Under the pieces are notes generated by a model that saw only the letters and a list, made by a program, of their open reading frames with translations, was not told the DNA's origin and did not search any database. 64,000 nt of DNA from Prauserella halophila (GTDB taxonomy: Bacteria; Actinomycetota; Actinomycetes; Mycobacteriales; Pseudonocardiaceae), in NCBI RefSeq assembly GCF_024171895.1, contig NZ_JAMTCQ010000010.1:372001-436000 (forward strand). The letters are read 5' to 3'. Positions within the stretch are counted from its first letter, which is position 1, and the number at the start of each line of letters is the position of its first letter. Shown here in pieces: positions 12,051 through 61,113 of this stretch. The position numbers and the translations under genes are program-made.

Positions 12051-12400
12051 GGCAGAGCACGGTACGGACCTGCGGCCGGTCGAGGGCGAACGAACGGGGC
12101 GCGACACGGCACGGCAGGCAGCCGGCGTCGCACCGGGGCCGAGTGCAGAACACGCGTGGGGACCAGTCGTGCGGTGGGCGCAGGACGGGCCTGGAACCCA
12201 CAACACGGCCCGGGAATCCGCAACACGGTCTCTGGAAGGCGCAACACGGCCCCCGGAATCCGCAACACGGCGTACTGGGCGCAGGACACGCGGGGTGGCA
12301 GGTCGGCGGACCGGTCGGTCGACTGATGCCGCGTCGTGCCCGGCGTTCGTAGCGTTCACGGCAATCGACACACGCACCGATCGATCCGGGAGGAACCATC
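12051..12400. other. Intergenic region with 21-bp-type repeat cluster
   Basis: Apart from the repeat cluster at 12193-12294 and the leader of the flavin reductase (GGGAGGAA before the ATG at 12401), I see no gene here. Confidence 0.5.
12193..12294 (+). repeat. Intergenic tandem repeat cluster 1 (21-bp period)
   Basis: Four units of the form GGAATCCGCAACACGGCC start at 12193, 12213, 12234 and 12255, followed by a variant unit (GCAGGACACGCG). Period is 20-21 bp. It lies between divergently transcribed genes. Confidence 0.8.
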
Positions 12401-13036
12401 ATGACCAGCGACAACGCCACGGCCACGACCGCAACCGACGACAACACCGCGGCCGCGGGCAACGACCGGCGCGCCGGCGACCCGTTGCGGCTCGCCGTGA
12501 TCATCGGCAGCGCCCGCACCGGCCGGTTCGCACCGGTGCCTGCCGCCTGGTTCGCCGACGAGGTGCGCAAGCATCACGGGTTCGACGTCGACGTCATCGA
12601 CCTGGCGGGGATGGACCTGCCGGATTCGCTCGACGGATCCGCCGACACCGACGCACTCGGCGGGCGTCTGGCCGCCGCCGACGCGTTCGTCGTCGTCACG
12701 CCCGAGTACAACCACAGCTACCCGGCGCCGCTCAAGGCCGCCATCGACCACTTCCACGCGGAGTGGCTCACCAAGCCCGTCGGCTTCGTCACCTACGGCG
12801 GCATGAGCGGTGGCCTGCGCGCCGTCGAGCACCTGCGCGGCGTATTCGCCGAGCTGCACGCCATGACCGTCCGCGACACCGTCAGCTTCTACAACTACCC
12901 GGACCGCTTCGGCGACGACGGCCTCCCGCACGACGCGGAGTCGGCGGGCCAGGCGGCCAAGGGCATGCTCGACCAGCTGCTGTGGTGGGGCAGGGCACTG
13001 CACGATGCCCGGGCGCAGCACCCGTACGGCAGCTGA
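12401..13036 (+). CDS. NADPH-dependent FMN reductase family protein
   Basis: This 211-residue flavodoxin-like protein has a disordered Thr/Ala/Asn N-terminus (1-28). The FMN-phosphate loop is LAVIIGSARTGRFAPVP, and the family signature is VVTPEYNHSYPAPLKAAIDH (about residues 104-123), followed by GFVTYGGMSGGLRAVEHLR. Members reduce FMN, quinones or azo compounds with NAD(P)H. Single gene with a good ribosome site (GGGAGGAA). Substrate unknown. Confidence 0.9.
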   Translation: MTSDNATATTATDDNTAAAGNDRRAGDPLRLAVIIGSARTGRFAPVPAAWFADEVRKHHGFDVDVIDLAGMDLPDSLDGSADTDALGGRLAAADAFVVVTPEYNHSYPAPLKAAIDHFHAEWLTKPVGFVTYGGMSGGLRAVEHLRGVFAELHAMTVRDTVSFYNYPDRFGDDGLPHDAESAGQAAKGMLDQLLWWGRALHDARAQHPYGS

Positions 13037-13285
13037 CCACTGCGTGCTGACGTGGTTCGGCCCAGTCGGCCGGCAGCGCTCACCCGGCCACTCTGCTCAC
13101 CCGGCCACTCCGCTCGCCTCGTTCTGCTCACGTCGTCCGTGCTGCCCAACTCGACCTGCTCCGCTCGTCCGGCCCACCCGGGAACGTCGCCCACACCGGC
13201 CATGGTGACGTTCCCGGAGTGGGCGGCGCCGGTGGGATCACTGCCGGTTGACTTCGACCTAACTCGAAGTTGCAGAGTCGTGACC

Positions 13286-58628: not shown

Positions 58629-60998
58629 ATGAGCATGGACACGCCGGCGGTGCCGGCCGCCGACAGTCACGACCTGATCCGCGTGCAGGGTGCGCGGGAG
58701 AACAACCTCGCCGACATCAGCATCGAACTGCCGAAGCGGCGGCTGACGGTGTTCACCGGCGTGTCCGGGTCGGGCAAGAGCTCGCTCGTGTTCGCGACGA
58801 TCGCCGCGGAATCGCAGCGGCTGATCAACGAGACGTACAGCACGTTCGTGCAGGGCTTCATGCCGAGGTTGGCGCGCCCGGACGTCGACGTTCTCGACGG
58901 CCTGACCACGGCGATCATCGTGGACCAGGAGCGGATGGCTGCCGATCCGCGGTCGACGGTGGGCACGGCGACCGACACCGGTGCGATGCTGCGGATCCTG
59001 TTCAGCAAACTGGGCGAGCCGCACATCGGGTCGCCGAAGGCGTTCTCGTTCAACGTCGCGTCGGTCAGCGGTGCCGGTGCGATCACGACGGAACGTGGCG
59101 GCAAGAAGGTCAAGGAGCGGCGCAGCTTCAACGTGCTCGGCGGCATGTGCTCGGAGTGCGAAGGCACCGGCAGGGTCACCGACTTCGACCTGTCGGCCAT
59201 GTACGACGACAGCAAGTCGCTGCGAGAGGGTCCGTTCACGATTCCCGGCTGGGGTGCCGAAGGGTGGTACGGGCGCATCTACATCGGCTGCGGCTTCTTC
59301 GACCCGGACAAGCCGCTGCGTGAGTTCAGCAAGTCCGAATTGGACGATCTGCTGTACAAGGAACCCACGAAGATCAAGGTCGACGGGATCAACCTCACCT
59401 ACGAGGGCATCATCCCGAAGCTGCAGAAGTCGATGCTGTCGAAGGACCGCGAGGCGATGCAGCCGCACATCCGTGCGTTCGTCGACAGGGCGATCACGTT
59501 CACGGCGTGTCCCGAGTGCGACGGCACCCGGCTGAACGAGACCGCGCGTTCGTCGAGGATTGAGGGCGTGAACATCGCCGACGCGTGCGCGATGCAGATC
59601 AGCGACCTCGCCGAATGGGTGCGCGGTATCGACGCTCCCCGGGTGCGGCCGCTGCTGGAGACGCTTCAGTCCACACTGGACTCGTTCGTCGAGATCGGGC
59701 TCGGATACTTGTCGCTGGACCGGCCGTCCGGAACCCTGTCCGGCGGTGAGGCGCAGCGCACCAAGCTGATCCGCCACCTCGGCTCGTCACTGACCGACGT
59801 CACCTATGTCTTCGACGAACCGACCATCGGTCTGCACCCGCACGACATCGCACGCATGAACGGCCTGCTGCTGCGCCTGCGCGACAAGGGCAACACGGTG
59901 CTGGTCGTCGAACACAAGCCGGAGACGATCGCCATTGCCGACCACGTCGTCGATCTCGGTCCCGGCGCGGGCACCGACGGCGGAACGGTGTGTTTCGAGG
60001 GCACGCTCGACGGGCTGCGCGGCAGCGACACGCTCACCGGAAAGCACCTCGACGACCGTGCTGCGCTGAAGCCGTCGGTGCGCGCCGCCGCCGGGGCACT
60101 GGAGATCCGCGGTGCCGACCTGCACAACCTCACCGGCGTCGACGTCGACATCCCGCTCGGCGTGCTCACCGTTGTCACGGGTGTGGCCGGGTCGGGCAAG
60201 AGTTCGCTGATCCACGGCTCGCTGGGCGGACGCGACGACGTCGCGATCGTCGATCAGAGCGCGATCAAGGGCTCGCGCCGCTCGAATCCGGCCACGTACA
60301 CGGGCGCGCTCGACCCGATCCGCAAAGCGTTCGCGAAGGCCGGCGGCGTCAAACCGGGGCTGTTCAGCGCGAACTCCGACGGCGCGTGCCCGAATTGCAA
60401 CGGCGCTGGTGTCATCTACCTCGACCTGGCGATCATGGCGGGAGTCCCGACGCCCTGCGAGGTGTGCGAGGGCAGGCGGTTCCAGGCGGAGGTGCTGGAG
60501 TACGAACTGGGCGGCAAGGACATCAGCGAGGTGCTCGCGATGTCGGTGGCGCACGCCGAGGAGTTCTTCTCCTCGGGAGAAGCGAAAATCCCTGCGGCGC
60601 ACAAGATCCTGAAGCGGCTCGACGACGTCGGCCTCGGGTACCTGACGCTCGGACAGCCGTTGACCACGTTGTCCGGCGGCGAGCGGCAACGGCTCAAGCT
60701 TGCCACGCGGATGACCGAGGGCGCGGGCGTGTACGTGCTGGACGAGCCGACCACCGGTCTGCACCTCGCCGACGTCGATCAGCTGCTGGCGTTGCTGGAC
60801 GGGCTGGTCGATTCCGGCAAGTCGGTCGTGGTCATCGAGCACCACCAGGCGGTGATGGCTCACGCCGACTGGATCATCGACCTCGGCCCCGGTGCCGGCC
60901 ACGACGGTGGCCGGATCGTCTACGAAGGCACGCCCGCCGACCTGGTCGCCTCCCGCCCGACTCTGACGGGCCAGCACCTCGCCGGCTACGTCGCCTGA
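58629..60998 (+). CDS. UvrA-like ABC ATPase (class II, DrrC type)
   Basis: This 789-residue protein has two ABC modules with zinc-binding inserts. Walker A motifs are VFTGVSGSGKSSLVF and VVTGVAGSGKSSLIH; signatures are TLSGGEAQRTKLIRHLGSSL and TLSGGERQRLKLATRMTEGA; Cys pairs are MCSECEGTGR, ACPECDGTRL, ACPNCNGAGV and PCEVCEGRRF. It is shorter than repair UvrA (about 950 residues), so it probably belongs to the UvrA2 class linked with drug or DNA-damage tolerance. ATG 58629 follows GGAG; GTG 58587 is an alternative. It may be in the AraC-VOC-F420 operon. Confidence 0.92.
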   Translation: MSMDTPAVPAADSHDLIRVQGARENNLADISIELPKRRLTVFTGVSGSGKSSLVFATIAAESQRLINETYSTFVQGFMPRLARPDVDVLDGLTTAIIVDQERMAADPRSTVGTATDTGAMLRILFSKLGEPHIGSPKAFSFNVASVSGAGAITTERGGKKVKERRSFNVLGGMCSECEGTGRVTDFDLSAMYDDSKSLREGPFTIPGWGAEGWYGRIYIGCGFFDPDKPLREFSKSELDDLLYKEPTKIKVDGINLTYEGIIPKLQKSMLSKDREAMQPHIRAFVDRAITFTACPECDGTRLNETARSSRIEGVNIADACAMQISDLAEWVRGIDAPRVRPLLETLQSTLDSFVEIGLGYLSLDRPSGTLSGGEAQRTKLIRHLGSSLTDVTYVFDEPTIGLHPHDIARMNGLLLRLRDKGNTVLVVEHKPETIAIADHVVDLGPGAGTDGGTVCFEGTLDGLRGSDTLTGKHLDDRAALKPSVRAAAGALEIRGADLHNLTGVDVDIPLGVLTVVTGVAGSGKSSLIHGSLGGRDDVAIVDQSAIKGSRRSNPATYTGALDPIRKAFAKAGGVKPGLFSANSDGACPNCNGAGVIYLDLAIMAGVPTPCEVCEGRRFQAEVLEYELGGKDISEVLAMSVAHAEEFFSSGEAKIPAAHKILKRLDDVGLGYLTLGQPLTTLSGGERQRLKLATRMTEGAGVYVLDEPTTGLHLADVDQLLALLDGLVDSGKSVVVIEHHQAVMAHADWIIDLGPGAGHDGGRIVYEGTPADLVASRPTLTGQHLAGYVA

Positions 60999-61008
60999 CC
61001 ACCGGGGC

Positions 61009-61113
61009 CGTGTTGTCGATTCCGGAGGCCGTGTTGCGCTTTCCAGGGATCGTGTTGCGGCGTCCGGGGTTCGTGTTGTCGATTCCGGGGTTCGTGTTGC
61101 AGTTCCCGGGGTG
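61009..61113 (-). repeat. Intergenic tandem repeat cluster 9 (21-bp period)
   Basis: Five CGTGTTG units start at 61009, 61030, 61051, 61072 and 61093, exactly 21 bp apart, beginning 11 bp after the UvrA-like gene. Confidence 0.88.

Follow-up and report, generated by a model that had tools for sequence, protein, structure and literature searches.

The stretch of Prauserella halophila DNA analyzed here, which we call the window (64,000 nucleotides, positions 372,001-436,000 of contig NZ_JAMTCQ010000010.1; genome size 5.05 Mb), carries nine intergenic arrays of short direct repeats. They belong to a repeat family that is real, oriented, and tied to gene ends in genera of the Pseudonocardiaceae (a family name that we take from the place of Prauserella), and we tentatively interpret them as protein-bound marks at the ends of transcription units. 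The window genome is labeled G000 and the window lies on its contig C3; other genomes carry G-numbers, other genera g-numbers, and individual stretches L-numbers. By a kinship table, Prauserella isguenensis (G033), P. aidingensis (G133), P. salsuginis (G116), and P. alba (G067) share the genus of the window genome.

Nine repeat arrays in the window

The repeat units fall into two subtypes with a common skeleton, T1 (CGTGTTGCGgnTTCCgGgGnc) and T2 (CGTGTyCTGCrytCgG). Six arrays occupy convergent gaps, and all 17 flanking genes of the nine arrays, plus two other genes tested, were confirmed by Pfam. On the plus strand, T2 followed by four T1 units (19667..19771) begins 13 bp past the stop codon of a Cu/Zn superoxide dismutase-like gene, T2 followed by three T1 units (33321..33404) lies 11 bp past the stop of pstB and converges with a TetR gene, T2 and two T1 units (44082..44136) stand directly behind a hairpin 3' of a DUF1416 gene, and five T1 units (61009..61113) lie 10 bp past the stop of an ABC-type ATPase gene, presumably UvrA-like, that converges with a peptidase M23 gene. 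On the minus strand, five T1 followed by two T2 units (34941..35154) start 26 bp past the stop of an ABC transporter ATPase gene (35181-35969, minus strand), and three T2 units (54645..54707) lie 29 bp past the stop of a sigma-70-like gene (54737-55963, minus strand). A seventh array, of three T2 units (52544..52606, plus strand; the 52541 array), is found 10 bp past the stop of an FGGY kinase gene in a tandem gap and in sense orientation. The last two are placed differently: four T1 units (28098..28181, minus strand) in a tandem gap are antisense to both neighbors, a LytR_cpsA_psr gene and phoU, and the array at 12193 (T2, four T1, T2; 12134..12290, minus strand) lies in the divergent gap between a YnfA-family gene (minus strand) and an FMN reductase gene (plus strand). 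Units are present at the latter place in 3/3 alignable relatives, with identical orientation.

An earlier sequence-only reading had described nine clusters in 21-bp register, with two subtypes that appear alone or joined. All nine were recovered at overlapping positions, and they comprise T1-only, T2-only, and mixed arrays. Its statement that most clusters lie near gene ends and many in convergent gaps agrees with the six convergent arrays, with two clear exceptions at 28098 (antisense) and 12193 (divergent). Within 52541-52640, a degraded T1-like unit in reverse orientation comes after the three sense T2 units, which gives the impression of two arrays that have met.

Unit types and register

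In 1.264 Mb of the window genome, T1 scored 152 matches (≥11 bits) versus 3 in a reversed-sequence control. T2 is noisier at the same threshold (106 versus 27). A two-unit pattern matched 210 times in the whole window genome and 0 times in the reversed control. We then pooled 93 sequences of the genus (2.28 Mb) and defined an array as two or more units on one strand. Of 549 adjacent T1-T1 pairs, 527 are spaced at exactly 21 bp, and for pairs involving T2 the distance peaks at 21 bp (124 pairs), followed by 22 bp (7) and 20 bp (6). Exact register is also held at the joints between T1 and T2. A sub-repeat of 7 bp has only a weak signal, at lags 7 and 14 (0.43 and 0.42, compared with 0.15-0.35 at other lags below 21). 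The register is found throughout the genome, and the sequence-only reading's exclusion of clustered regularly interspaced short palindromic repeats (CRISPR) is supported, as the units run head to tail with no unique spacers.

Related units in other lineages

One genome of the same genus, G149, has no match to the T1 pattern and instead carries its own unit, CGTGTcaGCancccgCGtcGc, 39 times in 60 kb (0 in the reversed control). In G149, arrays of this unit follow three orthologous genes, those that correspond to pstB, the ABC gene at 35181, and the FGGY gene. The first two orthologues adjoin convergently in G149, and each has its own array past its own stop and in its own direction, which indicates that an array belongs to a gene end rather than to a gap.

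Other genera contain further units: 21-bp arrays of CGTGTcCtGCatTCccGACGc in g4, CGTGTCCTgCGTTCgGaACncg at 22-bp spacing in g22, 21-bp arrays of CGAG(A/T)TCCGC(A/G)CTC in g15 (G014), and a two-copy relative at 22 bp in g20 (G019). The units agree at positions 1-5, CG(T/A)G(T/A), and, G149 excepted, in a TC at positions 13-14. The period is 21-22 bp in every genus in which arrays were seen; the strict 21-bp period of the sequence-only reading is not universal, genus g22 having 22 bp. A coding repeat (21 bp correspond to 7 codons) is ruled out by the 22-bp units of g22. No arrays were found in most other genera sampled (20-60 kb each), and the T2-type pattern occurs at most twice per genome among 296 genomes across the phylum. 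Among the matches listed in a wider pattern search, one in Myxococcales (L060) scores as a single unit only and was taken as chance.

Some stretches hold additional elements. Further unit-like motifs such as CGAGTTGAACGCTC, along with inverted pairs, occur in g22 (L208, L210, L214, and L216), and in g4 (L253 and L255) CGCGAGTCGCACC appears twice at 21-bp distance behind pstB and is perhaps another unit type.

Placement and orientation

Of 226 arrays in the pooled set, we set aside 31 located at the edge of a sequence and 10 within called genes, leaving 185. Stretches L060 and, for overlap with others, L031, L046, L059, L066, L097, and L105 were dropped before counting; loci L001-L030 lie outside the pooled set. 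Genes were called with a home-made caller whose starts are rough and whose stops are better, and the related species are non-independent samples. A same-strand gene lies on the 5' side of 146/185 arrays (105 in convergent and 41 in tandem gaps), a pooled count biased upward by the selection of L031-L121 for holding arrays. Placement is thus not random, and unit orientation is usually that of the gene immediately upstream. The median distance from stop to array is 16 bp in convergent and 13 bp in tandem gaps, and it is ≤30 bp in 102/146 cases. Convergent arrays are closer to the end of the gene on their own strand in 80/105 cases (p = 7e-8; 19/25 in the window genome alone). Pooled tandem-gap arrays are sense in 41/61 cases (p = 0.01), partly from loci chosen for arrays.

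Stretches of the window genome comprise two array-rich blocks and one poor block, picked after a whole-genome pattern scan. Here convergent gaps account for 19% of the intergenic bases but for 25/53 intergenic arrays (p = 4e-6), and 1/54 arrays lies inside a called gene. Sense tandem arrays are followed by the next gene at a median of 192 bp, whereas 52% of all tandem gaps are shorter than 60 bp, so the arrays stand mostly at transcription-unit borders. A role as macrodomain or origin marker was rejected: of the 126 matches in the complete genome G003, the first 100, which are those listed, span 0.12-3.9 of 5.55 Mb (parS-like sites lie at ∼0.64-0.66 Mb), and a spread this wide corresponds to no single chromosome domain, although density in the window genome is uneven (see Discussion).

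Relation to hairpins

We scored stems of 8 or more as hairpins. Among convergent gaps of the window genome with 40-200 non-array bases, a hairpin is present in 1/11 with an array versus 52/94 without (p = 0.004); for 40-600 non-array bases the counts are 4/15 and 69/121 (p = 0.03). The pooled, length-adjusted odds ratio for a hairpin given an array is 0.40, and 0/500 permutations were as low. The 80 bases past an array contain a hairpin in 14/95 cases, compared with 71/322 (first 80 bases) and 49/322 (next 80 bases) at array-less gene ends. Where an array starts at least 25 bp from the stop, a hairpin lies between stop and array in 23/54 cases. Arrays behind hairpins would hardly be transcribed, which favors a role at the DNA level.

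Two gene ends illustrate these relations. Behind pstB (named by NCBIfam), arrays are present in 7/7 Prauserella genomes, and the first 100 bases are hairpin-free in six and contain a weak 8-bp stem in one. Outside the genus, 7/10 pstB orthologues (in g13, g17, g20, g28, and three in g22) are followed by stems of 12-16 bp, those of two g4 genomes by no hairpin and a short motif that occurs twice at 21 bp and is weak by score, and that of g15 by no array and, at a greater distance, a 9-bp stem. Two lower-identity matches in G103 were kept outside this comparison, and G081 has no pstB match. Behind the DUF1416 gene, hairpins are found in 10/12 outside orthologues and in 5/6 Prauserella genomes with a located stop; of these five, four have a clear 21-bp array and the fifth a weak one. 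Some gene ends thus have an array and lack a hairpin, and others have both.

Sequence versus RNA structure

The preference for sense orientation would also be expected of a transcribed 3' element, in which the array would act as RNA, either as a target of Rho or of an RNA-binding protein, or as a long, imperfect rod that halts polymerase or shields the message. We consider this less likely than action on the DNA but a serious alternative, and part of the folding data agrees with it. Sense arrays fold better than dinucleotide shuffles (mean z of -2.0 for 30 arrays, 13 of them below -2), compared with -1.1 for the antisense strand. When G-U pairs are allowed, the best register of T1 sense RNA pairs to 0.81, a value reached by 8/300 column-order shuffles, and the antisense to 0.50; the g4 unit reaches 0.69 (15/300 shuffles as high). 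With Watson-Crick pairs only, T1 reaches 0.45 and 48/300 shuffles are as high. T2 and the g22 unit pair no better than shuffled columns (187/300 and 42/300 as high), and no pair covariation was detected in T1, T2, g4, or g22, where the largest excess over independent columns is 0.014 and conserved columns give little power. The invariant G7 and G17 are opposed and unpaired in the predicted T1 fold. T1 RNA is also richer in G than in C, unlike known Rho utilization (rut) sites, and part of the arrays lie behind hairpins. A hairpin selected as such is unsupported by covariation, with T1 sense pairing still above most column-order shuffles and sense folding better on average than that of dinucleotide shuffles. 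The conserved core would reflect sequence recognition, and its likeliest reader would be a putative protein on one face of the DNA.

Conserved places, replaced sequences

We compared orthologous gaps in six relatives by means of flanking anchors, counting window gaps from 11.3 kb onward. Units are present in 24/31 orthologous gaps of array-bearing window gaps versus 1/112 for array-less gaps, and orientation is retained in 23/24 conserved places. Within the window genome, unit identity is 0.866 within arrays and 0.790 between arrays (1000 shuffles gave a mean of 0.792 and a maximum of 0.810), a homogenization that points to tandem duplication. Between species, units of orthologous arrays (0.753, 33 array pairs) are no more alike than those of non-orthologous ones (0.744, 195 pairs). 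Array sequences have therefore been turned over, at least partly by local duplication, while place, direction, and consensus were kept.

Arrays are also gained or lost. Only 2/7 genomes, those of the window and of P. alba, have the 28098 array, and a tree built on 9.7 kb does not place the two as sisters. Conversely, G095 has eight T1 units behind its orthologue of the gene at 38366-39325, where six other genomes have none, in a gap ∼330 bp longer than that of its relatives (L194-L196). Past the eight T1 units, this G095 gap contains another element, unrelated to them, that carries inverted copies of TGAATCTGCCCTCAC.

Such gains and losses, together with the within-array homogenization that shows duplication, would suit a selfish or neutral tandem repeat, spread by some copying process and surviving where insertion is harmless, behind genes and between convergent genes. 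This explanation predicts neither the closeness to the own-strand stop, nor the kept orientation, nor the kept place with sequence turnover, nor a different unit throughout a lineage at identical gene ends, as in G149. By eye there is no target duplication at 28098, a Y1 transposase had no match in the window genome, and no match was found in the three phage, plasmid, and viral collections searched with one pattern and one array as query. We regard it as marginally less probable than an RNA-level element.

Comparison with known repeat systems

Iterons of plasmid origins are direct repeats of ∼19-22 bp in helical phase to which protein binds side by side. The arrays resemble them in being short direct repeats in helical phase, but number hundreds of units, scattered along the chromosome at the ends of genes; around the window arrays, all 17 neighboring genes belong to Pfam families other than rep, and one array used as query had no plasmid match. 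Mycobacterial interspersed repetitive units and variable-number tandem repeats are likewise intergenic tandem repeats of variable copy number in actinobacteria. Their units are larger, whereas the units described here are short and oriented and share a common consensus at many stop codons.

Repetitive extragenic palindromes (REP) and the bacterial interspersed mosaic elements (BIME) are present in many interspersed copies, mostly behind genes or between convergent or tandem genes, and have been proposed to act in termination, in the stability of messages, and in supercoiling (PMC3733652). The 21-bp arrays are likewise extragenic and mostly behind genes, but they are direct repeats without pair covariation, whereas REPs are palindromes. 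A REP reading was rejected, as T1 is no palindrome by the Watson-Crick pairing test and the REP-associated tyrosine transposase (Y1_Tnp, PF01797; partner of GTAG-type REPs) has no match in the window genome, with matches in 5/14 control genomes. TAACTGA direct repeats of Beggiatoaceae, cyanobacteria, and Bacteroidetes have 7-bp units in register and are oriented, intergenic, and mostly located just before start codons (PMC4679880). Both sets are short, in-register direct repeats that are mostly intergenic and oriented, and the reader is unknown for both; the arrays here differ in their 21-22-bp period, their position mostly past stop codons, and their lineage-specific unit.

An intrinsic terminator is not supported, given the lack of a covarying stem and fewer hairpins with arrays in short convergent gaps. 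Rfam returned only a cobalamin riboswitch and a tRNA over gathering score in the window, and no array match. Tests of the arrays as REP, CRISPR, or known RNA families were thus negative; in agreement with the sequence-only reading, no already described repeat class matched in the searches made, and we found no description of these arrays in the open-licence literature searched.

The cobalamin riboswitch lies at 38139-38327 (minus strand), upstream of a periplasmic binding protein gene, and a stretch of ∼15 bp near its 3' part is repeated in further copies in some relatives. In or near coding sequence at 17731-17806 and 24419-26440 there are several tandem repeats whose periods are divisible by 3.

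Discussion

We propose, as a possible though by no means assured reading of the sequence patterns, that the arrays are phased protein-binding boundaries or terminators that mark the ends of transcription units and are bound by a putative protein. Each 21-bp unit would be one recognition site for a sequence-specific DNA-binding protein, and sites two helical turns apart would allow side-by-side binding on one face of the DNA. Binding directly past the stop codon, or past a hairpin, may stop or slow RNA polymerase as it leaves the gene, and would limit read-through and convergent collisions where no strong hairpin exists. Array length could drift by local tandem duplication and loss, and a drift of the protein's preference between lineages would change the unit genome-wide, with place and direction staying. 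The data show the register, the placement and orientation of the arrays, the kept positions with replaced sequence, and the scarcity of hairpins in short convergent gaps; the protein, its action on DNA rather than RNA, and termination itself are what we infer here. The sequence-only reading had already suggested arrays bound by a protein on one face of the helix; this fits the exact register at subtype joints, the lack of covariation, and the 21-22-bp periods in all array-bearing genera, but tandem duplication could by itself produce the exact spacing within an array. That reading did not include the orientation rule, the retention of place while sequence turns over, or the link to missing hairpins.

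Several observations besides the spacing argue against our proposal. The remaining 39/185 arrays are tandem antisense (20) or divergent (19), as are two of the nine in the window, and tandem-gap arrays of the window genome alone show no orientation bias (11/22 sense). Array density is uneven: 4 arrays lie in 400-800 kb of contig C1 and 20 in 800-1200 kb, although the two blocks have similar numbers of convergent gaps (41 and 38) and equal GC content. Hairpins are not depleted in pooled convergent gaps of 200-600 non-array bases (14/17 with an array versus 23/34 without) or in tandem gaps (odds ratio 0.84), and the hairpin kept beside the DUF1416 array means that an array is not a simple hairpin substitute. 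Four of the 24 conserved places hold a single unit only, and T1 sense RNA, with G-U pairs counted, pairs with itself better than most column-order shuffles do.

A supercoil-handling site, with gyrase, topoisomerase, or a nucleoid protein drawn to the array because positive supercoils gather between convergent genes, in the manner described for BIMEs of enterobacteria, would account for the convergent-gap excess in the window genome but is improbable, since by itself it predicts neither the orientation nor the fewer hairpins and the lineage-wise change of unit is hard to square with a conserved enzyme.

To our knowledge, little is known of how transcription ends in high-GC actinobacteria where no good hairpin is present. 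In a more far-reaching and rather doubtful form of our proposal, the Pseudonocardiaceae would possess a terminator or boundary that needs no hairpin and consists of direct-repeat operators in helical phase, read by a dedicated DNA-binding protein, whose specificity would be rewritten jointly with the arrays in each lineage while the marked gene ends are largely kept. Even if the arrays do not terminate transcription, conserved places and directions combined with genome-wide replaced sequence make an unusual pattern of evolution and offer a direct way to search for the reader. If they do, they would be a new type of terminator and a compact part for work with actinomycetes. Taken together, the arrays suggest an undescribed stop signal for transcription in a group of soil actinobacteria.

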